From: Acarospora socialis
Lineage: Eukaryota > Ascomycota > Lecanoromycetes > Acarosporales > Acarosporaceae
DNA length: 64,000 bases
Direction: 5' to 3'
NCBI GenBank assembly: GCA_025617375.2
Contig: JAMYGW020000002.1
Span: forward strand, 3,100,001 to 3,164,000
Shown here one piece after another: positions 1,375 to 49,694 of the stretch. A program made the translations under genes and the position numbers. The notes under the pieces were generated by a model. It was given only the letters and a program-made list of their open reading frames with translations, did not search any database and was not told the origin of the DNA. How positions within the stretch are numbered: position 1 is the first letter of the stretch; each line of letters opens with the position of its first letter.

Positions 1375-2616
1375 ATGACTCCGCTCGAACATACCGATCC
1401 TGCCACTACCCTCGAAGACACCAATCCTACCAATACCCTCGAAGACACCAATCCTATTAGTACCCTTGGGACTTCCGAGGTTTCAGACGAACGCTTCTTG
1501 GCCGAATGCTTCAAGAACATCCAGGGTGTTCCCACCGTAAGTCCTTCTCTGCAAAACTTCACTGTCCCGTCATGAACGCGACCGTGTCAAGCGAACAAAC
1601 TGGCAAGCCCATCGTGCAGTTTGACCAGATTTTGCTGGACAGCATGTACCCTTTTATTTCAGCCCTCTTTATGCACTTCTCCTCCACATCTCGCCTTCTT
1701 TCTGTCCTGCATCTAGGCGAGCGGGATGCATACTTGACATTCACGGTTCAGTTGAGCATCCTGCACTTGGTCTTCCAATTCACTGCAGACTGTCCTGCTA
1801 TGGATTGCGACCGGTCGCAATGTTCCCCTAATCTCGTGAAGGAACATCATCCACAACATGTGTCTTCTCTTCTACACCTAGCTGTGCATACACCGTCGCA
1901 ATCGTACTTTCCCTTTTTGCACTAACCAAATATAACTTGGCCTCGAGCGGTTCTGACACTTAGTGTGGACATAGATCATGATGGATGCTGTGGCGGAGGC
2001 TTGCGGCATGCGGGATTGGAATTCGGCAATGATCAGACTCGTTGAGCTCACGTCCAAGCACCATATCTTCCAGACGACACCAGGTATCGTAGCGTCCCGG
2101 ATGATACAACTCAACCCGGCGGCCATTGCCACTGGTGGTCCAGCCACTATTTTTGACAGAGTCACCAAGCACCCCACCACCATTTCCAAGAAGAAAGGCA
2201 TCGTCCGCATCGTCAGAAAGTGCGAGCATAAGCTCAACTCCGCGACACAGGACAAGAACATTACCAAGGTCGACGAAGCCGGATCTAGTCAGGAGGGGCT
2301 GACTTGTGTCGGTGCCGATGACTCTGCTCACAATTCCGACATATCAAGCGAGCTGACATATTGGAGTTCCACACAAAAGGACCCATCGATCTCTGTCGAC
2401 GAGGATGGTCGAGCCTTCCCGGGCGTGACACGTGACCAGATGGACGACAAGGGCATCACCGTATCCCACCTTGTCTTCGTGAAGAGGGCCAAGAAGACCG
2501 GCACCATGGCAGAGCTCTTGGCCGACAAGACGCCAGAACAGGTCGCGAAGTTTCGTGCTGCGGAGGAGTTGCTCAACAGGGCTGCGGAGAGCACCAAGGC
2601 TGACGAGAGCAAGTAG
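1375..2616 (+). CDS. Myb/SANT-like domain protein, array member 1 (divergent)
   Basis: The CDS joins 1375-1536 and 1975-2616 (267 aa), phase 0. The intron is long (438 nt), starts GTAAGT and ends ACATAG, with CTGAC close to its 3' end. The junction rebuilds a short helical domain at about residues 39-85 (RFLAECFKNIQG, then AVAEACGMRDWNSAMIRLVEL) that aligns with the four downstream genes. The N-terminus holds a DNA-level tandem repeat of about 30 bp encoding two TLEDTNP units (1405-1465). The remainder is hydrophilic and ends in a charged, Ala/Glu-rich helix-like stretch (EQVAKFRAAEELLNRAAEST). It is the most diverged member: the second half of the domain lacks the basic residues seen in the others, so DNA binding is doubtful. 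Nuclear transcription factor is an inference from family type only. Confidence 0.72.
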
Positions 2617-3218
2617 CAACGTCATGTACACTCGAGCATGTATCAACATGTATCACTTGCGATTGTTGGTGTTGCCGGTCGAGCTTTACGAGCTGAATGG
2701 ATATCAGAAAGAGAGTTTGAATAAGTCAAGGCACGGCGGAGATTCTTGTCTGTAGTTAGCATTTCACCGACGAGCTTCTCGGGCTTGTTTCAAGAAGGCA
2801 ATAATGCAGATACGTCAAACACTTGCGAGAGAAGCTTGTGGAACCATCACCTTCATGCGACGGCCATGCAATGACAGCGGTGTTCAATGGATGCTGCCTA
2901 GCTAGCCCGTGATGCAGTAACTTTCAAGTCCTACCCAGTGCTTTCGGCGACTTCGAGTTTCTTCTTTCTTCACCAACCCCTTCCTTTCCACTTCCACTTC
3001 TAACTTCAACACCAACCACCCTTTCCACTTGCAATTCTTTATCCACAACTCTGCACATATCAGCAACTATATCCAGTGAGTATCGCAACTTTATCAAATA
3101 CCTGACTTTACTTCTCCCACCCATTAACAAACCACAGCCTGGGATCCGCAAGCCGTCCGCGAACCAGAGCCCCCGATAACACTCAGCAAGTAAATCAAAT
3201 TCGGCTCCACCATCGAAA
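2617..3218 (+). promoter_or_regulatory. Intergenic region with a predicted 5' UTR intron of the next gene
   Basis: No coding sequence is seen. A good intron candidate lies at 3076-3137 (GTGAGT donor, CCTGAC branch point, CACAG acceptor), upstream of the ATG at 3219. This suggests the array member 2 transcript begins before 3076 and has a spliced leader in its 5' UTR. Confidence 0.5.
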
Positions 3219-4102
3219 ATGACGACTTTCACCGCCGCAGAAACGAAGCTCCTCACGGCCTGCATGCGCTGCATGAATTCTGATGTCAGTAATTGCGTAA
3301 GTCTCTCGGTCTCTATCCCTTCGGTTTCTTCTCACATTCACTCCTCCTCTCTCCTTAAGATCGTTATGGTGGTTACCGTTGCAATCACATCTTGGACCTC
3401 ACTTTTCGCTCTCGTACCCCGCATTCCAAGCCTAGCAGCAGCAACAAGACAATCCACACCCCTTTCCTCCAGACCTCTCACTTCATTTCACATCCCACCA
3501 GAACCCCGACCACTCTCGCCGCAGCTATCTCCCGCTCTTTCTCTCTTACACGTCTCAAGCCAAGCTAACCCTTCTCCAACCCTCAGATCGACTTCGACAA
3601 AGTCGCCCTCGAAGCCGGCTACAAGGATGCGAAAAACGCCAAGGTCATGTTCTCGCGCCTCAAGAAAGCGAAGCTCGACGGCGCCACGACCGGCGCCGCC
3701 CTCACGAAGCCCACGACGCCGTCAAAGAAAGGCACAGGCGGCACGACGGCGGCGAGGAAGGGCGGGAATGGTGGCGTCGTGAAAGGTACGGGCGGAGGAG
3801 GCGCGACGGGTGGAAGAGGGAGGAAGGGCGCGAAGGCGGTCGCGGTGGCGCATGGAGGCGCTGTGGGTATGGGTGTGGAAGTGCGGGATGATGATGAGGA
3901 GGAAGTCATGGGTGTTAAGGCGGAGAACGGCGATGGTGGCGATGGAAACGGTAACGGGCTGAAAATCGATGGTAGTGGTGAGGATGTCGTCAAGGAGGAG
4001 CATGACGGGGTCACGGAGGGGCAGGTCGTCAACGGCTTCACTGCTATTAACCGTGCGAGCGTTTCGGAGGCGGATGAGCTCGGGGATCAGGAAGAGGCTT
4101 AG
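3219..4102 (+). CDS. Myb/SANT-like domain protein, array member 2
   Basis: The CDS joins 3219-3296 and 3587-4102 (197 aa). The 290-nt intron is phase 0 (GTAAGT..CTCAG) and falls at the same point of the domain as in members 1 and 3, just before IDFDKVALEAGY. Domain residues 5-60 run ETKLLTACMRCM, then IDFDKVALEAGYKDAKNAKV, then MFSRLKKAKL, matching the fungal small Myb-like domain (Pfam has a Myb_DNA-bind_8-type family, from memory). The tail is Gly/Lys/Thr-rich and then acidic (DDDEEEV), with two psi-K-x-E sites (VKAE, VKEE) that fit a SUMO acceptor consensus. A nuclear DNA-binding regulator is the likely role; target unknown. A large antisense open frame here is a by-product of GC-rich codon use. 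Confidence 0.8.
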
Positions 4103-4782
4103 GTTGCGCGGTCAAGTTTATGGCTCGTTTTTCGTTTTCGCGGAAATTTGCGCAGGAACGTTCAGCGGTCTAGGTTCTATGCGTCTGGTCGGTGCTGGAA
4201 AGTGGCTTCGGAGGCTCGACGTAAGGTTGGAGAAGCTGGTTTTCAGCGGTCACGAAGTCGAGGTAGTTCACCGCGTTCAGGCATGACCATTTCCACTTCA
4301 AGCTTCCTTGCGACTCCATGACTTGAAGTAAAGATACCTAAAATATCTCGAAGTAAGACTCAGTCCCGGATTACCACGAGTAGAACTGCCTATGTTTTGT
4401 TACGCTCGATTCGATAGGCTTCATTTCTCCTCCTGCAACGGTTATGCTCCAACCTATCCGTCGCCCTCTCGCTCTTCTTTAATGCACCAATGCGGCTGAA
4501 TTATTCTTGCAGCGATCAATAGAGGTTTGCTCGGCAAGGTGCACTCAAGCATTCTACCTATCGACCAGAACTGACGTCCTCGTAAGTCATCCCACAGTCG
4601 CTGTCAGGCTGCCCTATAATTCCAGACAAACCCACCTTCGTCTCTTATTACATCTTGTCCTGCAAACAAGCTTAGCAGACATCATCAGTCAGTTTCGCTT
4701 AGCGTCCAGCCACCATCAACCTTCACCAAGCCCTGAAGCCTGCTTTGCTTGCACGGCATATCCAGCTCACCAGATAAGCACC
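4103..4782. other. Intergenic, no feature recognised
   Basis: This holds the 3' region of array member 2 and the promoter/5' UTR of member 3. A CT-rich stretch precedes the ATG at 4783. I see no further gene. Confidence 0.5.
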
Positions 4783-5550
4783 ATGGCTCCAGCTAGCAAT
4801 GAAGCTCAGTTCAAGTTCCTCATCTCATGTATTCGTTATTCGAACAACGGAAAGGTACAAGCTGAGCCTACCCTTCGTGAGGAAGCTGAACACTGACGTT
4901 TGGCAGGTGGACTTTGGCGAAGTCGCTCGCGAATGTGGCATCGTCACCAAGGGGGCAGCGTAAGTGCTTGTTGTTGCCCGCCCTGTCATCCCTCAACTTC
5001 TTCGTGCAATAGCCACGTGATGCTGACATCTTCTGTCACGGATAGCGCAAAGCGATATGAGCGAATGATGAAAGCTCATGGCATCCACCCAACCAGCCCG
5101 GTTGCTCGCGAAACCCCAACTCCAGTCAAGCCCAAAGACACCGCCAAGCTAAGCGCGATGAAGAAGCGCAAACTTGATCAATTCTCCGACGTTCCAAGTG
5201 GTCTGACCGATGACGACGAAGGCTTGGCTAGGGTCAAGGACGAGATGGAAACAGTCAGGATCAAAGACGAGCCAGCAACCGCCGGTACAGGGTATCATCC
5301 AGCAGAGGAGTTGCAATATCCGACTTTGCAAGCGGACTGCAGCATTGGGGAAGGCAACAGTAGCTATCGCTCTGACGATGCCAGTGTCTTTAACGACTTC
5401 ATGCAGTCGGGTACGTTCAGCCAGACCTCCCCTGAAACCCAGCCAAGCTTTCCTTTTGAAAGCAGTTCATCGGTCTACGGCGACCTAATGACTGGTGGGC
5501 CCGAGGAGGCTCCACAGACTGCGAATGAGATCATCCTGATTACCGATTGA
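4783..5550 (+). CDS. Myb/SANT-like domain protein, array member 3
   Basis: The CDS joins 4783-4854, 4907-4959 and 5046-5550 (209 aa). The first intron (52 nt) is phase 0 immediately before VDFGEV, the position shared with members 1 and 2; the second (86 nt) is phase 2. The domain at about residues 8-58 is the clearest of the set: QFKFLISCIRYSNNGK, VDFGEVARECGIVTKGA, AKRYERMMKAHGI. A KKRKLD basic stretch follows as a likely nuclear localisation signal, then VKDE and IKDE, both psi-K-x-E SUMO-type sites. The rest is Ser/Gln/Glu-rich and disordered, resembling an activation region. It is probably a nuclear DNA-binding regulator; the target is unknown. Confidence 0.85.
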
Positions 5551-6591
5551 GTGCACGAAGACTCTAAGCTGTATTTCTTCGGCCGGCGAGGGTTTCTGAG
5601 GTTTCGTGCGTCGGTGGCGTTGGTGGCCTATTTCTTCTCCATTTGATACAAAGCAACTGGAAACCCGTTCAGGTGTCGGCAAAGCTGCTGAGCAATAAGG
5701 CACTTCTGAAAACATCGACTGGGCGAGTGTTTCGGACACATTCGAGTAATTGACGTGATTCGGACCTGTCTCAAGTCCTATCGTCTCTTCTCTAGCCCAG
5801 CAATGTAAACTTAGCTCAGTACGACGCAGCGAAGAACGTGCAGCTAGCAGTAGAACTCAAAGAAGACTAACCAGGTAGCATTTCAGACGCGTAGTTCGCA
5901 CAGATCTCTCTCCCACTCATGATCTTACTAGTAGCAAGTCCGAGAAAACGTTCCCTTAGACGCTCGATGCCACAACATCAACTTGTACGAAATGTAGAGA
6001 TGTATAACAATTAGTCAACATGAACAGCTACCTCAAACGAGGAAAGAGGATGTGACGTCGAAATTGTCTTGTACGCTAAAGCATCGGCGTTTACGATACC
6101 CGTTCTCCGGGCGGGAACTTGCATGCATTTAGTTAGCCGTTCCCCAGATTCCCCAAACTTTAGGGCTCCGACTCCTGTAACCTGGAGATGAAGTCCGCTG
6201 ATAAAGGCATACTATATAATACAACATGTTGCCTGGCTACATTTGACCGTTATGGAGTGCTGTTTCGTAATCGCTCTTGCGACGAGCCCTCGACCGCCTA
6301 ACCATGACACTCTATCGAGCTTCTATCCTGGTCCATTCCGAACTATCACGCGCTGTCAACTGATCTTCTGAAAGTGAGTGTATGGTCTTTCGGTCTTCTA
6401 GCACTCCAGCTCAAGTCACATGGAGCTGCTTCCCGTTGCATTGTCTACTGTTTCGAAACTTCCTACCTACCACAACTTACTTACCAACTACCTCTTCGAA
6501 CCAGCTTCAGTTCACTCAACACCACGCAAGCTTCTAACATTTCAACTCAACTCCTCACTCCAAGCAAACGATCAAGACAAACCTCGCAAGA
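5551..6591. other. Intergenic, no gene recognised
   Basis: The stretch of about 1 kb between array members 3 and 4 has no convincing coding sequence. The last 250 bases are C/T- and A-rich and look like the promoter and leader of member 4. Confidence 0.5.
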
Positions 6592-7315
6592 ATGGCTAAC
6601 AAGATGACCTGGGACGGTAAGCTCCACGTCCCCATCCTCCCTCCTCCTTCACCACACTCGAGTCTCTTCAACCCTTCACTCAAGATTTACTCACCTCATC
6701 TCCACCCACAATCTCGTCAGCACACCTCACCTCACCCCGCACTAACCCCTCCCCAACACAGGTGCCGCCGACCAACACCTCCTCCTGTCGATCCTCACCA
6801 CGCACGACGTGAAAGTCGACTTCGACATCGTCGCCACTCATCTCGGCTGCACGCCCCGCGCCGTGCAGGAGCGCCTCAAGAAACTCCGCAAAATGGCCGC
6901 CGAACACACTACTTCCGATCCCACCACCGCTGCCGCCGTCGTCGGTCCCAAGACGCCAACTAAGGGCAAGACCAAGTCGCCGATGAAAACCAAGACTAAG
7001 ACCAGCACTGTGGCTGCGGATGAAGTTGCGGTGACGCCGAGCCCGAAGAAACGTAAGGTTGCGACGCCGAAGGGCGGGAAGGGCGGTGGGGTGAAGGAAG
7101 AGACGGGGGAGAAGGCTACGGGTATGGTGGAGATTGTTGGGGAAGGAGGTGGGGAGGCGGTTGATGAGGGGGGTGTGGGTAATGAGGAGGAGATGGGGGA
7201 GTATGCGATGGGACCGGAGATGAGTCAGGTAGTTAAGGAGGAAGATCTGTTGAGCGATGGTCACGATCCGGTCCTCTACGACGCGCAGATCGGATTGCTG
7301 TCTAGCGAGATCTAG
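6592..7315 (+). CDS. Myb/SANT-like domain protein, array member 4
   Basis: The CDS joins 6592-6616 and 6762-7315 (192 aa); the intron is phase 1 (GTAAGC..ACACAG). The first exon encodes only MANKMTWD plus one base. The domain at residues 7-60 reads WDGAADQHLLLSILTTHDVK, VDFDIVATHLGCTPRAVQER, LKKLRKMA. Unlike members 1-3 it has no intron before VDFD; the intron sits upstream, as in member 5. The tail contains PKKRKV, identical to the classic SV40-type nuclear localisation signal, and two psi-K-x-E sites (GVKEE, VVKEE). It ends in an acidic stretch. It is likely a nuclear DNA-binding protein. Confidence 0.85.
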
Positions 7316-10098
7316 GGGTGCTTTGGAGACAACGGAAGTGCGGTGCCACAGAGGCCTTGAGAGATTCTTGGGTTTTGTTGCTCTTGGTTTGGGGTGGGGC
7401 TGGCGTGCAGATCTGGTTAGGAGAAGATCTCTTGGCGCGGGGTTGATACCAATGTTGGGTGGCAGTTGGTGTTTTCATAGCGCGACCCCATTGATGAACT
7501 CATACGCCTTCTCCATGTCTGTGAATTTAACATCCCGTAGACCAAGATCATCGTCGGCAATAATCTCAAATTCAAAAAGAGGTGTCTCCTCGCTCTAATC
7601 ACTTCGATTGTTGAGTTGACACTAGACAGATTCGACACCTTGTCTTCCATAACAGATCATATACCTCCTAAGTACAACGCTCATCACCTACCTAGGTACG
7701 CACCTCAATACACTGTTGATGGTCATGATAGCATGGCACAACATGACCAGTTGAGCTGCTTCCAGTCCAGTCGCCGGAGCCAGATCGTGATGGAATGAGC
7801 GACGTCTAAGTAGTATCCAGCAGCGACTAACAAGGGGATCCGTCTCGCTACCGACCCTCTGCAGCTACATGAAGCTGGACGGCTTCTAGGACTAGCCTCT
7901 GTTCATTTTATCTGCTTCAAAGAAGACCATGTCCCTCAGGAGTAGTTTCCCCGGACGGAAACACAAGCTAGCTTTAGCCCCAAAGGACCAGCAACAGCCA
8001 TCTAGGCGAGCGCGGTGCCGAGTGTTATGAATGCCAATAGGTAGACTGACCTTTCGCTGTCATTTTCGTGCTGCACGAGCGAGGATGTCAGATTTAAAAC
8101 GGTAGTACCGGTCTAAAAGGAATAGAGTTCAGCTAAATCGAAAGTTGAGATACATAGATCTTGTCTGCGAAACACGTATGTCTACTCTTTAGAGAACGGA
8201 TAGGGCACCGATCAACATACGGGGTCGGTTCGTTGCTTGTCGCAAGGTGAAAGTGTGTTGTGTCCCACCAAGCAGCTGTTACGGAAGACGGACATTTGAA
8301 GCCGGAGCTATCATATCAGGGCTCGAAAAAACGTCTTCAGTCCTACGGCGGGAGTCCATGCTGAAGACCTACGCCCCTATATCAGCTTCGCCAAACTGAG
8401 GTAGTGAACCAGCAACACAGAGTCGTATCCGCATGTTAGGCGTGTGACGGTTACCTCTGGATGAGGCAGCTTGGTCTGAGAGCAGTTGCTATACCGGCGA
8501 TAGAGGAGCATTTCTAAGTTTGCGTGGCTTCAATTGGATTATCTTTCCGTTACCGCATCAGTAACATAGTAATGCATTGGCTGTGTGTGGGAATGCCAGG
8601 AGAAGTGCCAGGTTTATGAAGAATATAACGTGAGGACCATGAATTGGAATTGTCTGAGGTTTGGAGACCTCCTGCCGTGAAGTCTTTTGAAAGAGCTCAA
8701 TGGATACTAGTCAGGTAATTCTGTAGATATTGCATTGCCGGGTCTATACCTGTCCTGTTGGCGCAACCCTGAGAAGAGGTTGCTATAGTGGCAGACAAGC
8801 CATAAGGTCTTATAATTTGCTCTTAAGCGGAAACTAGGCATGATATCTTCAAATTGTACCGAGGGGTACGTTGTGACGAACCAATCGTAGAATTGAGTCG
8901 GTTGGGGCTTGTTAAACTAGCTCTATATCTTTGAAGAACGCTTTAAAGTCGAATGGGCACGCGTCCAGGATGTTGTTTGCAATGTATTCTCGCTCTGTAT
9001 CGAAGTTATCTTCTAGGGTGACTCACCAGAGTGAAGCATCGCATCCTGCAAGTGCTTTTAGCACACAGAATGATTGCGTTGCTGAGCTCGTTGCTCCAGC
9101 ACAATCCGACTCATGTGACCGTAGAAGCCGGCTTCGGTCACAGTGAATGTGCCCTAGCGATGCGATGAGCAAGGAACGCAGATAAGTCCGCCTCTTACTA
9201 TCTGCAGCAACGCCCGCCAACTGTAGGCTTATGATAACACGTATAGCATGCTGGAAACTTACTCTGCCAGGGAGACTATATAGCATGACTGAAGGCTCTC
9301 GCAGCTCTAAAGGGCGACCAAAGTAGGGCCTCGGAGCGTGGTCCGCTTGAGCAATAACCCACTGTAACGCCTGCGCTCCTTCGACAGCTCAAAAGCTGTG
9401 AGCCCGCTCGTTGCTCGTTACTCGTTGCTCGTTGCCTGTTGCTATGCGGCGGCTGGAAATGAGGGGTAATCAGTGAATCGTCAGTGAAGTTAATGCGGGC
9501 GTGCTTAGAACGTGCTCTGCTGCCAGGGCTATACAGTGAATGCCCACGCAACCTTCACGTCAAATACCTCTCTTCCACCTCAACGAACCTCCCTTTCTTG
9601 TGTAACCTCAACCCAGTCCTCTTGAGGTGTTTCATCTCTTCGACTCAATCGTTTAGACCTCACCTTAGTGCGAGGTCGTATCCTTCTGCGGAGCTCATAT
9701 CAAAATTCAAGGTACGTACCGCGAGTCACATCCCGAGCAGTCCTATCTTAGAGCGGCCACAACGTGGATGCGCCGTCACCCGCTCAGGTTTGCGACGGTC
9801 TTTCGTGCCGTGAAGCAGTGACAGGCTAGAGCCGTGCTCCTGATCGAAAGCTCTGGCATGTATTGCCGATTAGAGCTCTACACCGCGCACCATTCGAGCT
9901 CTCGAAGCGCGGAGTTCGCTCCAGACCGCATTCCAAGCCACCAGAATGCACATTTGCAGAATCTTCTGTTTCCTCGTCACTGTTGACAGATTGCACTCGG
10001 CAATAGCGAGCTCCTTTACTAATACCATATCTGTTAACTTAGAATTCTCGTTTTCCTTTCGGACTCGCGCCAAGTCTCCCAAGTCCGGGAACTCCATC
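7316..10098. other. 2.8-kb gene-free gap inside the Myb-like array
   Basis: I see no gene with domain or splice support in this stretch. All frames are broken into short pieces on both strands, and composition is more balanced than in the GC-rich coding tails around it. A heptamer array (CTCGTTG) lies at 9407-9441. A decayed further paralogue or old insertion could be hidden here, but nothing in the translated frames resembles the Myb-like domain. Confidence 0.45.
9407..9441 (+). repeat. Short heptamer tandem repeat (CTCGTTG)
   Basis: About five consecutive 7-bp units: CTCGTTG, CTCGTTA, CTCGTTG, CTCGTTG and a diverged CCTGTTG. It is non-coding and probably arose by replication slippage. Confidence 0.7.
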
Positions 10099-11992
10099 AT
10101 GGCGGGTCAAAAGACTCCTCGGCCCCCGAAGCGTCATTTGGTTCGTTGGACAGGTACGTTGGTTCTTGAAAAGATCGAATTCGATCGAGCAAGATATTAT
10201 AAGTCTCCCATCGTCCCGACTTAGACTTGTTGGGATCTTGGGGAGTTGCGCTTTGCTGGCCACCCAATCTTTGTTGGAGTGTCCTTTTTCAGGTCAGGTA
10301 GTGCGATGGGCTTGTTAGAGAACCGTAGATTGCAGTAATCAATAATCAACCCGGCGTTTGCTTGACAATTCTGGGGCTTGTGTTCATCCTCCCTTCCTAG
10401 CATTGTTGATTTAGTCTTCCAGAATTACGGACTCTATTCCTGCTGATTAAATATTGCTGTTGCCTGCTGTTCTCCCAACTGGTCTCACATTTGCTTCGAT
10501 GTGGCATCCTAAATAAGCAGGGCCGCTAACTTCGAAAGCAGACGAGATGGACAAGAAGCTTCTTCTGGCTATCCAGTCGTGCTGCAATGCAGATGGCGTG
10601 AGAATTCCCTGGGAAAAGGTCGGCAGGGTCATGGGCGATAAAATCAGCGATGGCGCTGTCATCCAGCATCTGGCGAAACTCCGCTCGCGCATGGTCAAAC
10701 AAGGCCTTTCGGTCCCTCCCCCTCTAAAACGCGGTGGCGGCAACATCATCTCCACTGGAAATAGTTCCGGGTCCGCGAAGGTGGCGGTCGCCACCCAAGG
10801 TGGAAAGCTCTCGGATCCTGCTCATGAAACAAATGAAGATGACGAAGAGGAATTTGACGCAGACAAAGCGACGGATATGGACGAAGAGTATGGGCAGCCT
10901 CCCACCAAACGCGCAAAGCGCGGAAAGAAGAGCGACACTGCCGGGAAAGCGGCGAGCAAGCTCAAGGGTCAGGTTAGCATCAAAGTTGAAGAGAGCGACG
11001 GGACTGAAGGCTCGAATGTTGATCAGAAAGACACGCACGAGGTAATGAGCAAGAAACGCAAACGTCAGATGAAGAAGACTGGCCTGGGCAAAGGAAAAGG
11101 TCTCCCAAAGGGTAAAGGCTTGAGCCCTAGTACCCGTCCTCGCCGCTCCAGTGTTGATTATGCCGAGCTCAATGGCGGCTATGACTCAGAAGACGATTAC
11201 GACAGCGCCGAGGGTGAAGAGTACGTCGGAGCTGCGGCACCATATATGAAATTCGCGGAATCTCCCGTGTCGGACGACGTCGAAGTGAAGGACAACAAAC
11301 AGCGCGTAGAAATGTCTAAATCCGCTACTCCCAGTAAGGTGGTGGTTCTTCAGGTTGGAACCGCCAATCTCTTGGAAGAAGCTAAGCGCATGGAGGTGGG
11401 AACGGCCATCAAATCAGGACAGAGTAGTGAGAGCGATGAAGGGAGTGAGGTTGAGACAGACGATGAGCACGTTGAGCTCATGGAGCCGCAACTGGTGAAC
11501 ACCGAACCCAGCATGGGTCATTACGAGTCTTTCGGACCAGTGTATGCGAATCAGGATCCTACCGTTCATCAGCAGTATAACGCCACAACTCCAGTCTATG
11601 GTGGATTCACCCCCGCCGCCAATGGGCCACTTACTGTTGGTTATGGTTATAGCTCCTCGGCAGTGAACAACGGTAGCTGGTATCAAGGATCTGGATACAC
11701 TCACAGCTCCTTCAATGCAAACGCAGTCCCCAGCTCTTTTGTCCAACCGCTAGCGACATCGACGCGCGTCACTATACCCCAGCAGGCGAGTGGACCTAAC
11801 GTCGAGATGATTCCGATGTCTGCCACGTCCACGTACTCTGATCGTACCCCAGCCCTGATGGGGGACCAATACTACGCCGCGCTTGACGAAGGTATGGATG
11901 GTATGGATCCCTTTAGCCAAGCGTATAACGACCCGACACCTCAAGACCCTGTGTTTGGGCCAGACGGTGGATTTGGTTACTTCGATTTTTAG
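10099..11992 (+). CDS. Myb/SANT-like domain protein, array member 5 (long)
   Basis: The CDS joins 10099-10153 and 10542-11992 (501 aa) through a 388-nt phase 1 intron (GTACGT..AAGCAG). The junction restores VRWTDEMDKKLLLAIQSC, a typical start of a Myb-type helix, followed by IPWEKVGRVMGDKISDGAVI and QHLAKLRSRMVK (domain about residues 15-72). It is much longer than its neighbours. Residues about 100-215 alternate acidic and basic blocks with two likely nuclear localisation signals (KRAKRGKK, KKRKRQMKK) and an IKVE psi-K-x-E site. The C-terminal half is Gly/Ser/Tyr/Pro/Gln-rich, resembling a low-complexity activation domain, and ends GYFDF. It is the most transcription-factor-like member of the array. 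Confidence 0.85.
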
Positions 11993-13087: not shown

Positions 13088-15049
<1,962 letters not shown>

Positions 15050-23581: not shown

Positions 23582-26500
23582 TCAAGTCCGATAAATCTTC
23601 ACCACCGCCCTCACCGCCCTCCGACAAACGGGGCAAATCTCCACCTGCCTCGCACACTCGACGCAAGCACAGACATGGCCACAATCGTAAAACAGCGCAT
23701 CCTGTTCGCTCTCGTAGCAGATCTGACACGCTCTCTCCTCCTCGTCCGCGACGAGGTAGTGCATGGTGCCCTTGCCGAAGCGTTTGCCCTTTCGGAAGCC
23801 GCCGACGTACTCGTTGCCCGTGGCGGCGTAGACCATCTTGCCCTCGCCGTGCATCTGGTCCGCTAGCCATTCGCCCTCGTACACGTCGCCGTTCTGGTAC
23901 GTCATCGTACCAAGGCCGGATCGGTTCGAGGCCACCAAACTGCCGGCGTACGAGTTGCCATTCATGTCGGTCGTAACGCAGGGTCCGTATGCGCGGCCGC
24001 GCTTCATCGTGCCAGAGAAGTAGTTGCTGGAGAAGTAGGATTGCGTCATGTAGCCGTTGATTCGGTTGGGGTGGTTCGAGCAGAGGCAGAGGTAGTGCAG
24101 GAAATCGGCGGGGTTGGCAAAGTCACCGCGTTCTTCGATCAGTTTGGTCCTGTTGACGTTAGTCATGTCTATCTAAAAGATAAACAAAGGATTTCGTTTC
24201 TTACTCTTCTGCACTAGGCTGCTGTTGCAAGATAATGATAGACCCAGACGTCAAGTCTTCATCTTCAAATGTGCTGTACGATTCGATAACTTTGGCGTTG
24301 TCCAGACCGACTTCTTTCCAGATTGTCCACGCAGACGCATCGGAAACCTTTGGAAGTGCTAGGTCCGGTATAAGTTTCTTTACTGCATCCTTCACCTTTT
24401 CATGGCGGTTCATAGCAACGCCACACAGACCTGTGAGACTCTGCCGCTCGGTGTCGTAGTGCTTGATGAGGATGTAGGTAAAACCAGAGGCGTGAAATTT
24501 CTCGACAGGAGATAAAGCAACAGTCGCAGCAGGGTCGGCCGACGTCGGTTCTTCTAAGGTGTCTATTGCGGTAACACTAGCGTGATCGACGGTTGCACCA
24601 TTATCGGGTACGACTGGCGAGTCGACCTCATCGTGATGATCCTCCATGTCGACATCCTCGCTATCATCTTCCAGATCTGGGTTTAGCACGTCCATTGGAG
24701 TGGTCTCATCATTCGCTCCGGAGCTGTTGATAGATTCTAACTTGTGGGGCGATGGAAGCGTGGCAAGCCAAAGGCACCTCAAGGGATGATCACGCCGCAT
24801 CTCTTGCATATCAATATCCAGTGACCTGTTGACGAACCTCGGCGCGGTTTGAATGTTCCCGTTAATGATAAACAACAGATTCTGTGTTGAATTCTCCGCT
24901 TGCCGCGTCTGTGAGAGAACCTTCTGTTGAAGTTCCTTGTAAGTTATCTGTCCATCGACGGTGATATGGTAAACGAATTCGGACTGCCCAGAAGCCCAGC
25001 GCGGGTCATACACATCGCCGAACCCTTGACCTTGATGACCCTTGAACACGTCATGATGAAAAACGCGAAACGTTATTTGCTCCGCCTGCGGCTTGACCTC
25101 GTCTGGTTTGACTTGAACACTGGCAGTGGTACCTTGGTCAACCGGTATACCAGTGGAGAAGGGACCGTCAAGGCTACTCTGGGTTTCATTTTCTGTTGGA
25201 GAAGCGTTCAGTAAGCAATGCTACACAGGAGAAGCTAGATCTGAAAGCTCCGGAAATGATAGACTTACTTAGCCACCGAGACACAAGCTTGCTTCGTTCG
25301 CCAGCGTTGTCGTTCCAAACATCATCCCGTAGATACATGACAAGGTATGCAACTGCGGCCGTTTCCTCATCCCGTTCTCCTTCTTCGAACCCTTCGTGTG
25401 CACGAATGGCTTTCTTCGTCGTTATGCACTGAACCTGATAACGTTTTCGTTCCCCATAGAATTTGAACCACTTTGTGCCTGGCCCACCGGGACGGATGAC
25501 TAGATAGTAAAGACCAGACTGTAGAGCTCCTCGATGAACGATCATCCCATAGAGTGAGTATGTGAGCTTGGAACCACAGTCAACCGTTTGCTGGGCAAAC
25601 TCAAGTTTCTCATCCATTATAACCCTAGTGTTTACCTTTTGCCACTTGCGAGTCGTGCCTTCAAACAGCTGTCTCTCAATCTCAACCTGAAGTAGCTTCG
25701 GAGCAGATTCTATGACTTGTCTGGCGAGCTTCTTTCCACCATCGAGAGCCTTGTTCAGGTGTTCTTGAATACTACCACCCCTCCTCGCTGAAATTCTGAT
25801 GCAGGGGTAGTCCTGGGCCCTGGTTTCAACCGACGAAGTTCCGTTAAGATGAAGGTGACTCGGAGAGGTGATAGGACCGAAAAGCTCCACCAGCTTCCTC
25901 TGAGTCTCAGTGCCTTCAGCTTCTTGCTCCATCTTCCACCGGATGATCTCCCAAGCCTCAAGCGTGTCGATCTTAGCTCGGAAGTCAACTCCGTACCAAT
26001 TGAGTGCCCGTACGATAGGGGTGAGCTCGACGGTGTTGTTGGGCGGGACCTCGTGCAATGCGTGGTACAATACGCGTTGCAATGCGAGAAAGAGAGGCTT
26101 CGGCCTTGCGAAAGGCTCTTCCTCTGGGAGTGGAGCGTGGAAGTCATGTACTAGGTCCTGAAAGGGTGCAAGGTGAAGCCAAGCCGCCATGCCAGCAGTG
26201 AAGAAGCCTTCTCCTTCCATCCTGGTGGAAAGACCGCTAAGTCCGGTCTTCGCAATATTATTCCAAGAAGGTCCTTCGTCACGTTGATGCCACCACAATG
26301 ATCCTGTAGGATCCTTGATGATGCGAATGTATGCGGTCAAAGCTAACGTGTCGTTGCGGAGCAAAGCTTGCCTTTGGCCACGCTGACGTACGTGAATGTC
26401 AGTCCAAGGACCATGGAAATACTTTCTTCCAAAATCGTCGTTACCGTTCCAGAATTGATGGTGTTCCTTGAAGCTGTACTGTACGCGTGGTTCTGCAGGA

Positions 26501-27844
26501 TTGTAGAGGACCACACCGAATTGAGCCGCTACCTCCCACGGAGCTTCGTCTTCAGCATTGGGCGAAGAAGGAGAATCTTGCATGGATGAATCTGGGTCGC
26601 GAACCTCGGGATTCGAAGAACCTTCCGGCGCATCGACCGCAGCCCTCAACTTATCATCTTCCGACTCTCTTGATATTTCAGCATCATCAGCAGCACCATT
26701 CTCCCGCTCCATATCATCATCACTATAAGACTCTGTTGAGCACTCTAAGTAAACACTGAGCGAACTCGTCTGATCTCCCCTTGGGTAGAGTTTCAGCCTC
26801 CAATAGAAGCCTCCGATGAACTTGGGCGGTGATCGAAGAACCGCCAATCTATTTGGCTTCTGCCGTGTGCCATGGACATTGTTGACCGTCCAATCAATCC
26901 GAGCAGTTTCGCCTGGGACATACTCTGGATCGTCTAATTCAGGCCAGAACTCGTGCTCCCAGTGCTTGTCTGTTCACTTGTTAGTCTCTGTTCAGTCTGT
27001 GATGTCGCATACACTCACGATCAAGTGCGCTTATCTCTGGACTGCCCTGTTCAATTTCTTTGAGCTCTTCTTCATCGGGTGCAGAAGTATCTTCCGTCAG
27101 GTCGGCCCACCACGGATCCTCCTCGTCGTCTTGCAGTTCCTCATCACGTTCGCCTTCCGGATCTTGGATGCTATCTGGCGGTGGAGGCGGCGGCGGCGGC
27201 GGCGGTACGTTGATCGTTCTTCGGGGTGCCGTACCTCCGGTTCTTACTGGCGGCACAATATCCATACCGGCACCACTGTCGATACTACTGCCATTGGAAG
27301 TTACCCGCACCAGATTCTCACTTTCCGAAGGCGGCGGGGGTGTGTTAGTTCCCACCATCACCGAGACATTAGGCTGCGGCGGTGGTGTTACTACCCCAAC
27401 AGCTTCAGTACCCAGCTCGCCTGATGCAGATTCTTGCGGCGCATTCCCGCCACTTCCATCAACACCTCTCTGCGGTTGATCCGGCGCGGTATCCATAACT
27501 TCCATGTCCGCCTCCGAAGTAATCTCCCGAGACGAAGTTGAAGTAACAGGGTCCGACGCATTTCCGCCAGAAGACGCTCCGCCATTCCCCATATCCGCAT
27601 CTATTCTATCGTGGTTTTGCCCCTCCGGATGAGCTATAACGACGGGAGGATGGAGGTCCATCGCGACAGGACGTGAACGTACAGATGAGGGCGAAGGCAG
27701 TGGAGGCGGACTATAGTGACGTGAGCTGAATTGTGGGGAGTGCTGAGGTGAACGCGATTGAGATGGAGATGAAGTTGGCGATCTAGGAGCGAAGAATAAA
27801 GGTGGAGGGTCAATGTTCACGGGGGAGCTTATGGCGACCTCCAT
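23582..27844 (-). CDS. MATH / inactive-USP / MORN / RING protein
   Basis: The CDS joins 27844-27019, 26969-25269, 25192-24205 and 24149-23582 (1360 aa). Residues 1-275 are Pro/Ser-rich and disordered, with a run of ten Pro. Residues about 276-490 resemble the MATH domain of fungal 'MATH and UCH domain' proteins (HKHWEHEFWPELDDPEYVPG). Residues about 510-840 follow the ubiquitin-specific protease fold but lack the Asn-Thr-Cys box (GLSGLSTRMEGEGFFTAG instead), and the His box reads HRGALQSGLYYLVIRP, with Leu for the catalytic His. Peptidase activity is therefore unlikely. The C-terminus carries MORN-like repeats (YAGSLVASNRSGLGTM, YEGEWLADQMHGEGKMVY, YVGGFRKGKRFGKGTM) and a C3HC4 RING from CQICYES to CPVCRR. 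It is probably a RING ubiquitin ligase using the dead USP fold as a binding module. Confidence 0.88.
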
Positions 27845-29158: not shown

Positions 29159-32100
29159 TCATCGACGCTCCTGATAGCCCCTCGGTACAGGTACGCCATA
29201 GGAACTCGGTCTGTAATCTCCACCTGCCGGCGGTGTGAATGTCCTCCCACCAGCTTGTGCTTGCTGCTCTCTCCTCATCTGATCTTGCCTTGCCTGCTCG
29301 TGATGCAGTTGCTGCATCCGCTGCTGTTGCAAATCTTGTGGGTACGCCATCCCTTGCCTCAAGCTGTTGATTTGTTGCTGTTGTTGATGGATCTGGGTTG
29401 GAGCGTGGTGGTATAGCTGTTGATGTTGAGGTCCAGCGGCGTACGAAGACTGCTGAAGAGGGTATGAGGGCGCCGGTTGTTGATGCGGAGTTTGAGTGTA
29501 GCTTGAACTCCTCGAGTGGCTGTTGAATACTGGCGGTGCTGGGCTAGGCGCACGAGCGTGCTGGTACGTAGGCCGCGAAGGCTGGGCGTGTGCGCTGTGA
29601 ACCTGAGGAGATGGTACACGCTGGGGCTGATATGTAGGCCGAGGGTCATAGTAGGTACGATTATGGACAACGGCGGGCCAACTGGCACTAAGCTCTGGGT
29701 AAGTGCGCACTGGCGTTTGTTGTGGTTGCGGCTGGTTTGGCAGACCGAAGGATTGCCTTTGCTGAGATTGCACGACATGCTGATCTATGGGAGCGTCCTT
29801 TCGAACGGTATGCTGCGATTGTTGCGATTGAGGTTGCGGAGGATGATAGCGTACAGTCTGAGGCGCAGGCGAGTGAGAAGGCGGCGTCGGCGCCAGGACT
29901 TTCTGATCACTGATCCGCTTTCGAGGTGATGGCTCGGTCGGCTCATCATTGAGAATTGACATGATATTTGATCTTTTCACAGGAACTTGCGGTGGACGCG
30001 TTAGCTCTGGAGCAATAACCCCTCCCGGCAGTGTACCCGGTCGAGGCTCGTCCCTTGCCGACAACGGCGCGACTACCGGGCCAGCAACAGCTGGCGAGCC
30101 GATCGGTGACTGCATATATTGTTTCTGATGCTCATAGGAGTCTAAACGCCGTAGAGAGGTAGGAGGCTCAGTATGTTGTTGGTGCAGGTTCAACCGTGGA
30201 CGTGGCTCGATTTGTATCGCTTCCGATGGACCTGATCTGGATTGTAGGGCTACAACAGATTTCGTAGGATGGCTTGCTGGGTAATGTTGTTGTACTGGAA
30301 GCTGCTGCTGATTGTGGGGGAGACATTCTGCTTGCGAAAGGTCGATTTTCTGGGGGATTCTAAACGTCGGTGGATATCGTGACTGCGATTCCTGCGCCCG
30401 ATGCTGTATCCGAGCAGCTCGACCTTGTTCCGATTGCTGTAATTGTTGCAATTTCTGTTGGTCAAGTTGCTGTTGACTTCGCATTTGAGACGTAGACGTA
30501 GACTTAGACTGCATTTGAGACGTAGACGTAGACTGCATTTGAGACGTAGATGGAGAATGCGTATGAGACGTAGATGGAGAATGCGTATGAGACGTAGACG
30601 TAGACTGCATTTGAGAGGTAGACTGCATTTGAGAGGTAGACTGCATTTGACTAGAGAGACGACTATCCTTCCGATCATCCGGGAAGTATCCAATGCGCGG
30701 ACCTTGTGGGGCTTTCTGTGATGCCTGCGGCTGCACTTGGTTCGGCACGTGTACAGATTTTTGAAACGGCGTCTGTGAGATTGCCACGGTGGGGACCGGT
30801 GCTGCTTGGGCCAGTGTTGCGAGTCTGGGCGGAGCTTGGTTGTATTGCTGTGGGGAACCTTGAACGGGTACAGCGTGCGCAACGTTGGGAGAGAGATCCT
30901 CGACTTCCATCACGTCAGAATTCGGAGCAAGCGGACGGTGCTGTGCTGATTGCGGTGTTATCTCATAACGTCGCTTCTGAACAACTGTTGGGGGAGGTGG
31001 AGGACCCAGCGGCTCCCCACGCCTCCTCTTGTCGTCTGCTTCTCGGGCCATATCCTCTAAATCAGTCCTGCCTTGTTCCACCAGCCGGAAATAGTAGTTC
31101 TTAGCCTGTTGTGGAGGTGAGCCAGATGATCAGAAAATGTTGTTGGGAGTCAGGAGTTACGTACCATAGTATGTGTCTTAGACTTCATCCAATTTGCGAT
31201 TGCTGGCCAGTCGGTGCCGAAATGCGCGAGCAACTTGATGAAATCTGTCTGTTCTGGTACAGACCAGTAACTCGAGGTCTGAGAGGCAGGCTTCTGTTGC
31301 TGTTGCTGCCGTGCGGTTTCACTATGACCAGCCAGGGGTTGAGCTTGTGGGAACCAACTTTCACTTTGAGAGATTTGTGTAGTGCCCGGTCCAGCAAGCA
31401 ACGAGGCCAGAGAGCTCGCCACCTCTAAATCCTTGGCTTTCTGCTCGTCTTCTATCTTCGGTTCTCTGCTTTTGCCTCTGCTGCCTTCCCGTTCAGACTT
31501 CTGAGGTGATGGACCAGGAGCGGCGGCCAATAATGGAGCTTTACCCCTCTTTTGTCCCTTCTCCCTGGCATGGACTGTCTTCGTTCGCTTCGGAGTTGGT
31601 CTTTCCACGTTGCTTTCTAGGCTGACTTCACCTTTTGCTACAACCGGTTTTCGTGCTGGTGTTGGAACGGGAGTGGGATCGGTTTCGACAGCGTTGTCCC
31701 CAAAAGTGGGGGCGGCAGCTCTTTTAGGTCTCCCTGTATCTGTTACGGCAATGGCTGGAGCATCGGGTTCATCTCCGTCATACATCTCCGGATGAACGCC
31801 AAGATCGGACATCAGAGCATTCGATTTGGGTCGAGATTGTGGTGCTCTCCCCGCCCTGCGGCCTTTCTTACTCCACCTCCTGTTAAGCTTGACCTTATAC
31901 TTGGCCTCCTCCTTCGTGAGGTAGTAGTGCTCAATGCATTGCTTGTAGTCGCGCCCTGGCAGAGCCTCTGCAATCTTGCCCCATTTCTTGGGATACGCCA
32001 AGAAGTTCTCGGTGAAGATCTTCTGTTCTTCAGTGGTGAAGTCGTCAACAGGTGGCACAAAGGCGAACACACCCAAGGCTAGTTTGGCGTCCACGAACTG

Positions 32101-35100
32101 GTTAGTGTCTTTGAATACCCCAGCTTCAGCCTCATACTCGTCCAGCATGTCAGGTATCTTGGCTTCCTTCTCCGTATCTGTTTTTGCCTTCGCTTCACGT
32201 TCCGCTCTCTCCGCGGCTTCTTTTGCTACCAGCTCCGACTCCCTCAACACTCTCTGAAGATCAAACTCGGTGCCGAACTTCCCTCCTCTCCGTCCCTCAA
32301 CCAGAGGAGCAGATGCCACGATGGGAGACGTAGCTGTTGCAGGGGACGTTGGCGCAGGTGTGATAGTCTTTTCCTCCTTCTTCTTGTTGTCCAATTCCTG
32401 CACCATCATCCTCCAAGGTTTGTATAACGCTGCATACTCTTGCCGCAATTGCTTGTGCTTCTTAGCAACTTGGTTTCGCTGCTTCAGAATCTCAGCCCGA
32501 ATCGCCTCTTTCACCTTCTCGTAATTGCTGATATTTTCTTGAACCACTTCCAGTTCCGAGAATGGTGTTGGCGGTCCAGCGTTTAGAAACGGTAGGCTCT
32601 CGATTGCAGGAGTCGGGATTCTGTTCATGGGCACTTCTCGTAGAGCCGAAGCTGCATCTTCCATTTCGACATCACTAGAATTGTCGCGCTCCGGCGAGGG
32701 CAGGCCAGTGTGGCTTTGGCGAGTAGCATTGGGAAGGTCTGCTGGTACATCTCCTGTAACAACTACAGACTTGCCGTGATTATCCGCTAGTTCCTCAAGG
32801 GATATAATCTTCAGAATCTCCATGACCCTAGTAGTGCCATACCGAGGTGGGGCAGGCTTCTTGGCTTCCAGGATAGCCATCTCCCTAGCAAATCTACTCT
32901 CGCTATCGGCAAAGTCCTCCTCATCTAGATCCATGTCATCGTCATCGTCAGCTTCATCACTAGATCCGTCGGAATCGAAACTCAAGCCTATGGACTCTGG
33001 CCCCGTCATCGTCGGCTTGTCCTTGGAAGAAGTTCCAGACGCAGGTGAGTTCTTGGGTTCATCTACCGATTCTTCCTTCTTGACAGAGGGGCTTAGATTC
33101 CGAGACACTTGGTCCGATGGCTTGGGAGCTTGACAATCCGGCCGAGGAATCTCGTGCGCAGTTATACCGCCCCACGGAGGTGGTTCGGTTCTTGTCACGG
33201 ATGATATCGTACGGGACATTCGATCCTTCTCTTCACCAGCCCTATCGCGCTTGGCAGGGACAGTGTTCATGATGGAAGGAACTTTAGGATACTTTGGCGG
33301 GGCCGAGCGAACCCACTGATGGGCTTTCGGCGAGCCTTGTGCAAGCAAGGCAGACGGCGCGGTCGGCCTACCCTGAGGCTGGGGTCGTGAAGGTGGAATT
33401 ATCCTCCCAGCCCGCGGCCCTGTAGGGATATGTGTATTGAGCGGTCGAGGCGACGTCGTCGACCCATTTGGAGTCACTGCGGAAGCGGAACCGGGTGGAC
33501 CACCGGGTGTGACAGCCCGGACAGGCGTTGTATAGCTGGACCTAATTGAAGGCTGAGGTGACGAGGACAGAGCCGGCCGCGGCATTGCTTGTGCAGCTGA
33601 TGGTGTGACACGTAACGGCGCCGTTGGTGGCGCATGGTTGTCCAGACTGCGAGGTCCCCAAGGAGGATTACTGTTAATATCTACAACTTGCGCCGTGGCC
33701 GAGATCATGGCTGGGGTGGACCCCGTACGAGACGGATGGTGAATGTCATTGAACCTTGGGTTATTCGTCCCTTGATTCACCTGGTCCTTAGATTCAAAGG
33801 CTTGCCTTCTGTCCACAGAGTGATCCGCTCGAGGTCCAGTCGGCGCCTGGAGTGTCACCTGAGCTTTTGGCCCGGTCGGCACAGCCTTCGACACCGTCGA
33901 GACTTGTGCAGACCGCTCGTCCTTCGGTGCTCTCCACACATTGGTGCCAAACCCAGCCCCTGGCATTGATCGATTAGTCACAGATCCAAAGGCCGGCACC
34001 TGAGGCGCCTGAGGTGGAGGAGAGGATGCACGCGGTCCATATCGTTCTCGTGACGCTTCGGCACGGGTTGTGAAGTAGTCAAGTCTCTCTACGTCGCGGC
34101 GAATGTCCCGGTTAGCGGTGGAGGACACGACCGCACTCGAAGCCCGTCTATCGGAGACGGGTCCCAGAAAGCCATCCTTCAGGGCTGACCTGTCGGTGCC
34201 GGACAGATGTAAATTCCCTGCTGATGGAGCCAGTGGCGTTGAGGGTGCGGTCGACGACCCACTTGGATTGCGAGACTCCACACGATTCACTCCTTGCTCC
34301 CTTCTCCAGCGTTCGGCGTCGCGCTCTCTTTCCACCCGATCAGGCAGCTTTCTTTCCTCATCTCGAAGATCAGCTCGCCGGTCATCCCGCCGATCTGGGA
34401 CACGATCTCGCTCGCGGTCATAACTCGAATCTTGAACCCACCGTCGATCCTGAGAGCCACTTCTCGCCCGATAGCCTTCTCGATCATCCAGGAAAGTGCC
34501 GCGTCCTCGGCCCCTGAAATCCCAATCACCTCTGCCACGTCCTTTGAATCCACCGCGAGTGAAACCTCCTCCCGTGCTGATTGGCGGATCCGACGCGGTG
34601 GAAGTGGCGGACAAAGGCGCGTCTCGGGAATCTCTCCGGATACGGCTCAAATCCAGATCTCTCGGTTGACCATCTCTCAGGTCCCGAAAGCCTCTTCCGG
34701 GCGGTGTCCTCGACCGCGCTCGGGCCGGAGGTGACGGACGTGACTCTCGAGCCTCAAAGTCCCGATCCCGTCGCGGCCACTCCCGATCGTTCTCTCTGCG
34801 GAATGGTGCATCGTCCCGCAGATCCCTGCTTTCTCGAAAATCTCGTTCGCGCTCACGATCTCGATCTCGAAAGTCCCCGCGACCTGCAAAACCTCGACCC
34901 CTCGGCCCACCCGGGATGTGGCCCCCTCCTCTTGGACCGTCCACGAACCCTTTCGGTCCCCTGGGCGGTTCACGAGGTAGATCTCTGTTTAGATTAGGCG
35001 GTCCGTTATCTTCCAAGTTTCGAGATCCCGGATCCGGAGCGCGTGATCCTAGCAACCCTCCATGCTGAGTTGAAGCTCGTCTCTCCGCAAATCTTGGCGG

Positions 35101-35163
35101 TGACCGGTCTCGTGGTGCGTAGCGTTGATCACCCGGGTTAGGTGGAGGAAAACGTGAAGACAT
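29159..35163 (-). CDS. snt1: Snt1-like SANT-domain corepressor (Set3 complex)
   Basis: The CDS joins 35163-31165 and 31105-29159 (1981 aa) through a 59-nt phase 0 intron (GTACGT..CAACAG). The N-terminal 400 residues are Arg/Asp/Gly/Pro-rich. The first SANT domain at about 1040-1090 reads FTTEEQKIFTENFLAYPKKW, then GKIAEALPGRDYKQCIEHYY. The second at about 1295-1345 is interrupted by the intron, and joining restores WSVPEQTDFIKLLAHFGTDW, then THTM/AKNYYFRLVEQ. This is the Snt1/SMRT/N-CoR arrangement; in yeast Snt1 scaffolds the Set3 histone deacetylase complex with Hos2 and Sif2. The C-terminal 640 residues are Gln/Pro/Ser-rich. They include a minisatellite-encoded repeat (STSQMQ and STSHTHSP units, DNA 30480-30660) likely to vary in length between strains. 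Confidence 0.88.
30480..30660 (-). repeat. Coding minisatellite inside snt1
   Basis: Tandem units of 18-24 bp built from GACGTAGACTGCATTTGA and close variants (plus-strand reading). They keep the frame and encode STSQMQ and STSHTHSP repeats. Unit lengths are multiples of three, consistent with tolerated slippage. Confidence 0.8.

Positions 35164-45432: not shown

Positions 45433-49694
<4,262 letters not shown>

Follow-up and report, generated by a model that had tools for sequence, protein, structure and literature searches.

A recurring array of diverged Myb-like genes with shared predicted SUMO motifs in Acarospora socialis

We analysed a stretch of 64,000 nucleotides from Acarospora socialis, referred to below as the window (C2:3100001-3164000, a coordinate on contig C2 being the window coordinate plus 3,100,000; the genome comprises 31.1 Mb in 38 contigs), in which a sequence-only reading had picked out five plus-strand genes at 1375-11992 as a lineage-specific tandem array of Myb/SANT-like paralogues. 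The five genes, here g1-g5, form the 3' end of an array of about 12 genes that spans 34 kb on both strands (C2:3077677-3111992), and from the comparison with other genomes this row seems to have been together since before several fungal classes split. Nearly all members carry the same predicted SUMO signal in tails that otherwise look unrelated. With somewhat better than even confidence, we read the array as an old set of small nuclear Myb-like proteins, predicted to bind DNA as regulators and to be under SUMO control.

Gene models and extent of the array

Reading across GT-AG introns gave five open proteins, each with an N-terminal domain of roughly 50-60 residues, and we regard the following as credible gene models.

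1375-2616, plus strand: g1, 267 residues; exons 1375-1536 and 1975-2616; domain at about 1480-2088, beginning after about 35 residues; the most diverged of the five
3219-4102, plus strand: g2, 197 residues; exons 3219-3296 and 3587-4102; domain at about 3228-3682
4783-5550, plus strand: g3, 209 residues; exons 4783-4854, 4907-4959 and 5046-5550; domain at about 4789-5094
5233-5244 and 5260-5271, plus strand: psiKxE motifs VKDE and IKDE, respectively, in the g3 tail, from the motif scan
6592-7315, plus strand: g4, 192 residues; exons 6592-6616 and 6762-7315; domain at about 6601-6904; bridge between two subgroups
10099-11992, plus strand: g5, 501 residues; exons 10099-10153 and 10542-11992; domain at about 10138-10711

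The five genes are borne out, each beginning with a short domain once exons are joined. The exon joins of g3 are supported, because over 56 columns its domain shares 96% identity with the domain of an annotated relative and the match runs across both introns; the joins of g1, g2, g4 and g5 were checked through the match to relatives only. Two annotated relatives, P0090 and P0092, have extra residues at the position of the first g3 intron, probably an intron retained in the annotation, in agreement with the earlier warning that such genes are easily mis-modelled. The introns and homologues in the window are those of a filamentous ascomycete.

Seven further members (A, B, C, D, X, Y and Z) lie upstream of g1-g5, the array reaching about 22 kb beyond the start of the window, and one dispersed copy, E, lies on contig C10, giving a set of 13. 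An array of diverged paralogues had been recognised correctly, but as five genes instead of about 12, and on one strand instead of both; the sequence-only reading was confined to the window, where the upstream members do not appear. Judged from exon lengths in the models, a phase-0 intron directly precedes the second helix in six of the 13 members (g1, g2, g3, D, E and Y). Genome searches whose queries were the Pfam family PF22980 (Myb_DNA-bind_8) and segments taken from A, B, C, g1 and g5 (D, X, Y, Z and g2-g4 were not used singly) returned, besides E, only a match on C4 at 15.4 bits (E-value 0.42). A match of the Y profile at window 46426-46521 (E-value 0.0051) was rejected as a 32-residue piece, below domain size.

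A protein kinase frame unrelated to the array family lies between X and Y on the plus strand (L019:4753-5844, equal to C2:3084753-3085844; PF00069, E-value 1.7e-32), and a UFD1-type frame, also on the plus strand, adjoins X (L018:6384-7295). Member E, the sole copy found outside the array, borders a block at L007:6001-10000 (C10:178001-182000), shortly past the gene, in which the content of guanine plus cytosine drops to 27-29%; low values of this kind are seen in repeat-rich blocks mutated by repeat-induced point mutation.

The N-terminal domain and the tail motifs

Against PF22980, whose cut-off is 27 bits, the spliced proteins of g3 (85.3 bits, E-value 1.7e-24, matching almost the entire profile) and g2 (29.2 bits) score over the cut-off, as do D (68.6 bits) and E (60.3 bits). 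The g4 protein is at the edge, with 26.8 bits when spliced and 29.4 bits as an open frame in the genome scan, its relative P0241 reaching 29.1 bits. Below the cut-off lies g1 (16.9 bits, E-value 0.0039); A, B, C, X, Y and Z are below it or unmatched, and g5 has neither a PF22980 match nor any Pfam family below an E-value of 1. Membership of the classical Myb family PF00249 (cut-off 24.4 bits) was rejected, g1-g5 not being listed and the best scores being 15.2 bits for C and 14.3 bits for the g5 relative P0188. PF22980 is a domain profile only, silent on array and tails, and the literature library searched contained no paper using the name Myb_DNA-bind_8 or this accession.

Profile-profile comparison with hhalign, in which each pair was accompanied by 20 column-shuffled controls (the highest is quoted in brackets), gave probabilities of 96.8% for g5-g4 (1.3%), 98.6-98.7% for A-g4 (4.5%), 86.6% for g5-A (11.7%) and, depending on direction, 65-92% for g3-g4 (1.65%); the direct comparisons g3-g5, at 0.7% (1.38%), and g3-A, at 0.27% (0.43%), were no better than their controls. 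Because g4 links to g5, A and g3 while g3-g5 and g3-A stay at control level, the profiles divide the members into two subgroups bridged by g4, one of g2, g3, D and E, to which g1 is weakly attached, and the other of g4, A, B, X, Z, g5 and C. On the same comparisons, g5 is a relative of the PF22980 family via g4 and not a member of it. The claim that all five genes open with the same domain holds for a helical N-terminal domain, with g2 and g3 in PF22980, but g4 stands at the cut-off, g1 below it, and g5 is linked only through g4. Likewise, the motif (V/I)DFxxVAxxxG fits g2 (IDFDKVALEAG), g3 and g4 (VDFDIVATHLG), but not g1 (IMMDAVAEACG) or g5 (IPWEKVGRVMG).

The predicted model of the g3 orthologue P0002, an annotated protein labelled Pleopsidium flavum that is 63% identical to g3 over the whole length, has three helices (residues 6-18, 27-34 and 39-52), with a predicted local distance difference test score of 93-96 over residues 11-50 and lower values at both ends. 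In structure comparison Myb rows came top (7.8 to 6.1), followed by TnpE (6.0) and Lrp/AsnC (5.4-5.8), all below 8; Foldseek alone gave no match for this model at an E-value of 0.001 or less, and the structural match of the g5 type was uninformative. Searched by sequence against solved structures, the g3 profile found one weak match (E-value 0.97) and the g5 profile seven, the best to NF-kappa-B-activating protein (E-value 8.2e-5) over the charged tail, judged to be low-complexity. The array domain resembles the classical Myb repeats of PF00249 (such as Cdc5, c-Myb, Reb1 and TRF2), which the g3-type model matches best in structure, in its three helices and basic third helix, but no array member reaches 24.4 bits and each array protein carries one domain. 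The cited part of PMC3983115 describes MYT3 of Fusarium graminearum as a Myb-like putative transcription factor with two Myb domains; likened by that description only, it is similar as an ascomycete Myb-like protein and differs in its domain number.

The tails beyond the domain measure 136-426 residues, close to the 130-430 read earlier, but the statement that they diverge completely has to be withdrawn, because 12 of the 13 share psiKxE (psi being V, I, L, M or F) and 12 of the 13 a basic patch, K[KR]x[KR]. The 13 tails hold 17 psiKxE motifs, compared with a mean of 2.67 and a maximum of 9 in 1000 shuffles that preserve composition, and 18 basic patches, compared with a mean of 2.45 and a maximum of 8; the exceptions are g1, without psiKxE, and g2, without the patch. 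Look-alike motifs in the same tails were few (psiRxE 0, psiKxD 2, ExKpsi 2), and eleven other long open reading frames of the window hold 5 psiKxE motifs against 5.6 expected. In the part of PMC3856066 cited here, psiKxE is the SUMO consensus and acidic residues after the motif act as an enhancer; the motifs found above chance are most likely SUMO attachment sites, as predicted from sequence.

Among the relatives described below, psiKxE occurs past residue 60 in 119 of the 120 of g3 type, 110 of the 120 of g5 type, 60 of the 74 of A type and 18 of 24 of g4 type (four of the 28 were shorter than 100 residues and were excluded), although these counts are not mutually independent and a cleaner test is that on the 13 paralogous tails. 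Among g3 orthologues the motif stands at a fixed column in 50 of 62 rows (VKDE) and in 59 of 62 (IKDE), and the tail columns kept in at least 80% of these rows comprise KKRK, two acidic residues, the lysines and glutamates of both psiKxE motifs, and one glycine. One column (K167) holds psiKxE in 43 of 61 g5 orthologues, the lysine itself being present in 92%. Among proteins of A and g4 type, basic residues, prolines and a threonine or aspartate make up most of the conserved tail columns, and the position of psiKxE drifts (best column 28 of 73 and 11 of 24, respectively).

Age and recurring neighbourhood

Searches with g3 and g5 found 232 and 153 relatives, respectively, at an E-value of 0.001 or less, the best 120 of each being listed (for g5, scoring was limited to the 7994 candidates with most words in common). 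In a third search, a profile built from g4, B, A, g2 and g1 brought 105 relatives at 0.1 or less. When the 345 listed proteins were compared by BLAST with ten spliced A. socialis proteins, the best match was g3 for 120, g5 for 120, A for 74, g4 for 28, g2 for two (P0330 from Hypocenomyce and P0341 from Candelina) and B for one; g1, never searched outside on its own but forming one row of the third profile, was the best match for 0 of its 105 hits. Orthologues in other genera were found for g2, g3, g4, g5, A and B, and in other classes for g3, g5 and A. One g4-type relative is from Tuber, and g5 relatives among the matches listed come from lichen fungi, Geoglossum, Trichophyton and Aspergillus; A-type orthologues, too, occur in Aspergillus species. 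Also among the matches listed, g3 and g5 have their nearest named relatives in proteins labelled Pleopsidium flavum (63% and 57% identity, respectively), and g4 in an Acarospora protein (50%). The listed named relatives are annotated as hypothetical, uncharacterized or Myb-like proteins and similar.

A domain tree of 66 rows (53 relatives chosen from the 345, and the 13 own members), which carries warnings of few columns, long branches and unsettled bootstrap, contains supported single clades for A (99/98) and g3 (96/94). The g5 clade (97/100) also includes C, on a long branch, and g2 is supported at 97/78; g4 and its relatives do not form one clade (3 changes). On a very long branch, g1 joins g2 (96/77); X, Y and Z group with A (84/97), and B, which adjoins A on the chromosome, groups with g5 (96/99). 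The g3, g5 and A clades span ascomycete classes, so array members of these types are, by sequence comparison, old.

Linkage in other genomes was judged among the listed matches, contigs (the longest per protein) of identical length being taken as the same contig, and overlaps and tag distances being read by eye. Twenty-two named organisms list at least two types, and in 19 of these at least two types share a contig. The matches of the other three (Sticta canariensis, Candelina submexicana and Gyalolechia sp. 1) are each on a contig of their own, 6.7-16.2 kb long and thus too short to hold the array. Pleopsidium belongs to the 19 through its A-B contig, its remaining matches lying on separate contigs of less than 10 kb. 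Two or three types also occur together on seven additional contigs, not from named organisms. Across the lists there were 29 list-pair coincidences of identical-length contigs, compared with 0 or 1 in 40 perturbed versions; one of the 29, between 16227-long contigs of a Rostrohypoxylon protein and a second protein, was dropped as probable chance.

Locus tags look positional in 17 of the 19 organisms (not Usnea or Xylona), and same-contig tags are at most 8 apart. Counting array genes only for A. socialis, whose value is given in brackets, the distances were 2, 2, 2, 3 and 1 for g3-g5 (2); 1 and 1 for g3-g4 (1); 1 for A-B (1); 5 for A-g2 (5); 8, 7 and 6 for A-g5 (8); and 7, 7, 7, 7, 5, 5 and 4 for A-g3 (6). 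Three types in Pycnora are ordered as here (g5 003489, g3 003491 and A 003496). The classes looked up are Candelariomycetes (Pycnora), Geoglossomycetes, Coniocybomycetes (Chaenotheca), Lichinomycetes (Peltula), Sareomycetes and Xylonomycetes, with Thelocarpales of uncertain place; the class names of the remaining relatives' organisms are those we presume. The result describes co-occurrence and spacing of matched members, the intervening genes being unseen, and does not imply full gene order; linkage in the Aspergillus, Trichophyton, Botrytis and Xylaria relatives lies outside what the lists could show.

Proposed function, alternatives and surrounding genes

In the reading we favour, the three-helix Myb-like domain most likely binds DNA, a function we propose because the basic third helix and the fold point that way. 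In this reading the tail is disordered and mostly acidic, has a basic patch resembling a nuclear-import signal, and carries one or two psiKxE motifs to which SUMO is most likely attached. The domain would target a site in DNA, and SUMO joined to the tail might recruit or release SUMO-binding co-regulators, or tether the protein in chromatin; paralogues would differ in DNA site and share SUMO control. The earlier label of candidate DNA-binding regulators survives in that several members have a Pfam Myb-like domain and are plausibly nuclear and DNA-binding, but none belongs to PF00249.

Some observations pull the other way. The non-Myb folds TnpE and Lrp/AsnC score near the Myb rows, which lowered our confidence slightly; psiKxE drifts in A- and g4-type relatives; and, with regard to selection for linkage, no shared promoter motif emerged (the top 7-mer occurred in 7 of 12 upstream stretches and the top 8-mers in 5 of 12, no more than expected from the spread of 60 resampled sets), while the Discussion of PMC3219968, as cited here, allows conserved runs of two to about 10 genes. 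The drift would suit an alternative in which psiKxE follows from the composition of the tails, or in which short charged motifs serve some other purpose than SUMO attachment; the tails are indeed charged and the sites are predicted ones, but composition-keeping shuffles never exceeded 9 motifs against the 17 present, look-alikes numbered 0 to 2, and the columns are fixed in g3 and mostly so in g5 orthologues, which makes this explanation improbable. We are similarly doubtful that the domains are SANT-like chromatin readers, binding histone tails or other proteins, in an array encoding chromatin-complex subunits: 12 of the 13 members have a basic third helix, as is usual for Myb and not for SANT domains, and Myb repeats head the structure list of the g3-type model.

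A recent lineage-specific tandem expansion would place physical neighbours together in the tree, as is the case for some of them (g1 joins g2, and A groups with X, Y and Z), but we consider it very improbable. It is rejected, and already contradicted by the sequence comparisons, for g2, g3, g4, g5, A and B, given their cross-genus orthologues, the cross-class clades of g3, g5 and A, and the recurring neighbourhood; the verdict covers these six types, the ones searched outside (g1, C, D, X, Y and Z had no outside search alone). Moreover, the g3 domain is only 15-35% identical to those of nine paralogues, compared with 96% (g3), 91% (g4) and 69% (g2) between nearest orthologue domains, A-type alignments run at 34-72% identity (median 61%), and B adjoins A yet groups with g5. 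It is a good deal more plausible, though still short of even, that the linkage is passive, an old tandem-duplication array never broken up and without function in its linkage; the missing upstream motif, the mixed strands and the unrelated kinase gene within the array all fit. Against this, Hane et al. 2011 (PMC3219968) state that earlier comparisons among fungi had turned up either no synteny at all or microsynteny, usually of at most five genes, and they report gene order randomised between filamentous ascomycetes, so that retention across classes is unexpected and speaks for selection on linkage. We offer as speculation, unlikely to hold, that the whole array works as one functional unit. 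It would be an ancestral filamentous-ascomycete locus, held together for several hundred million years in the face of strong gene-order scrambling and with its linkage itself under selection, and its small products would form a graded DNA-binding set acting jointly through SUMO (for example in a nuclear body or in a repressive complex that depends on SUMO).

About 12 paralogous putative regulators in a neighbourhood that recurs across classes call for a cause, given the shuffling of gene order within chromosomes in these fungi. The common basic and SUMO-type motifs offer a direct test, and the array's own profiles together with synteny widen a family that Pfam recognises only partly. Animal Hox clusters, which are ancient tandem transcription-factor arrays, are similar in keeping old paralogous putative DNA-binding proteins adjacent, but they belong to a different family, and the array has mixed strands and no evidence of positional regulation.

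Downstream of g5 the window holds a Cpn60/HSP60 chaperonin frame (13358-15046, plus strand; PF00118, E-value 1.2e-55). Two deubiquitinase-type frames, MATH-UCH and MINDY, lie about 14 kb apart on the minus strand (25189-26973 and 41240-43807, respectively). A minus-strand frame of 1339 residues at 31153-35169, 19 kb downstream of g5, has one classical Myb/SANT domain (PF00249, E-value 6.1e-13) and was not matched by the array's own profiles. A further minus-strand frame, at 46264-49230, combines JmjC, a PHD-type zinc finger and DUF7072, and is possibly a histone demethylase.
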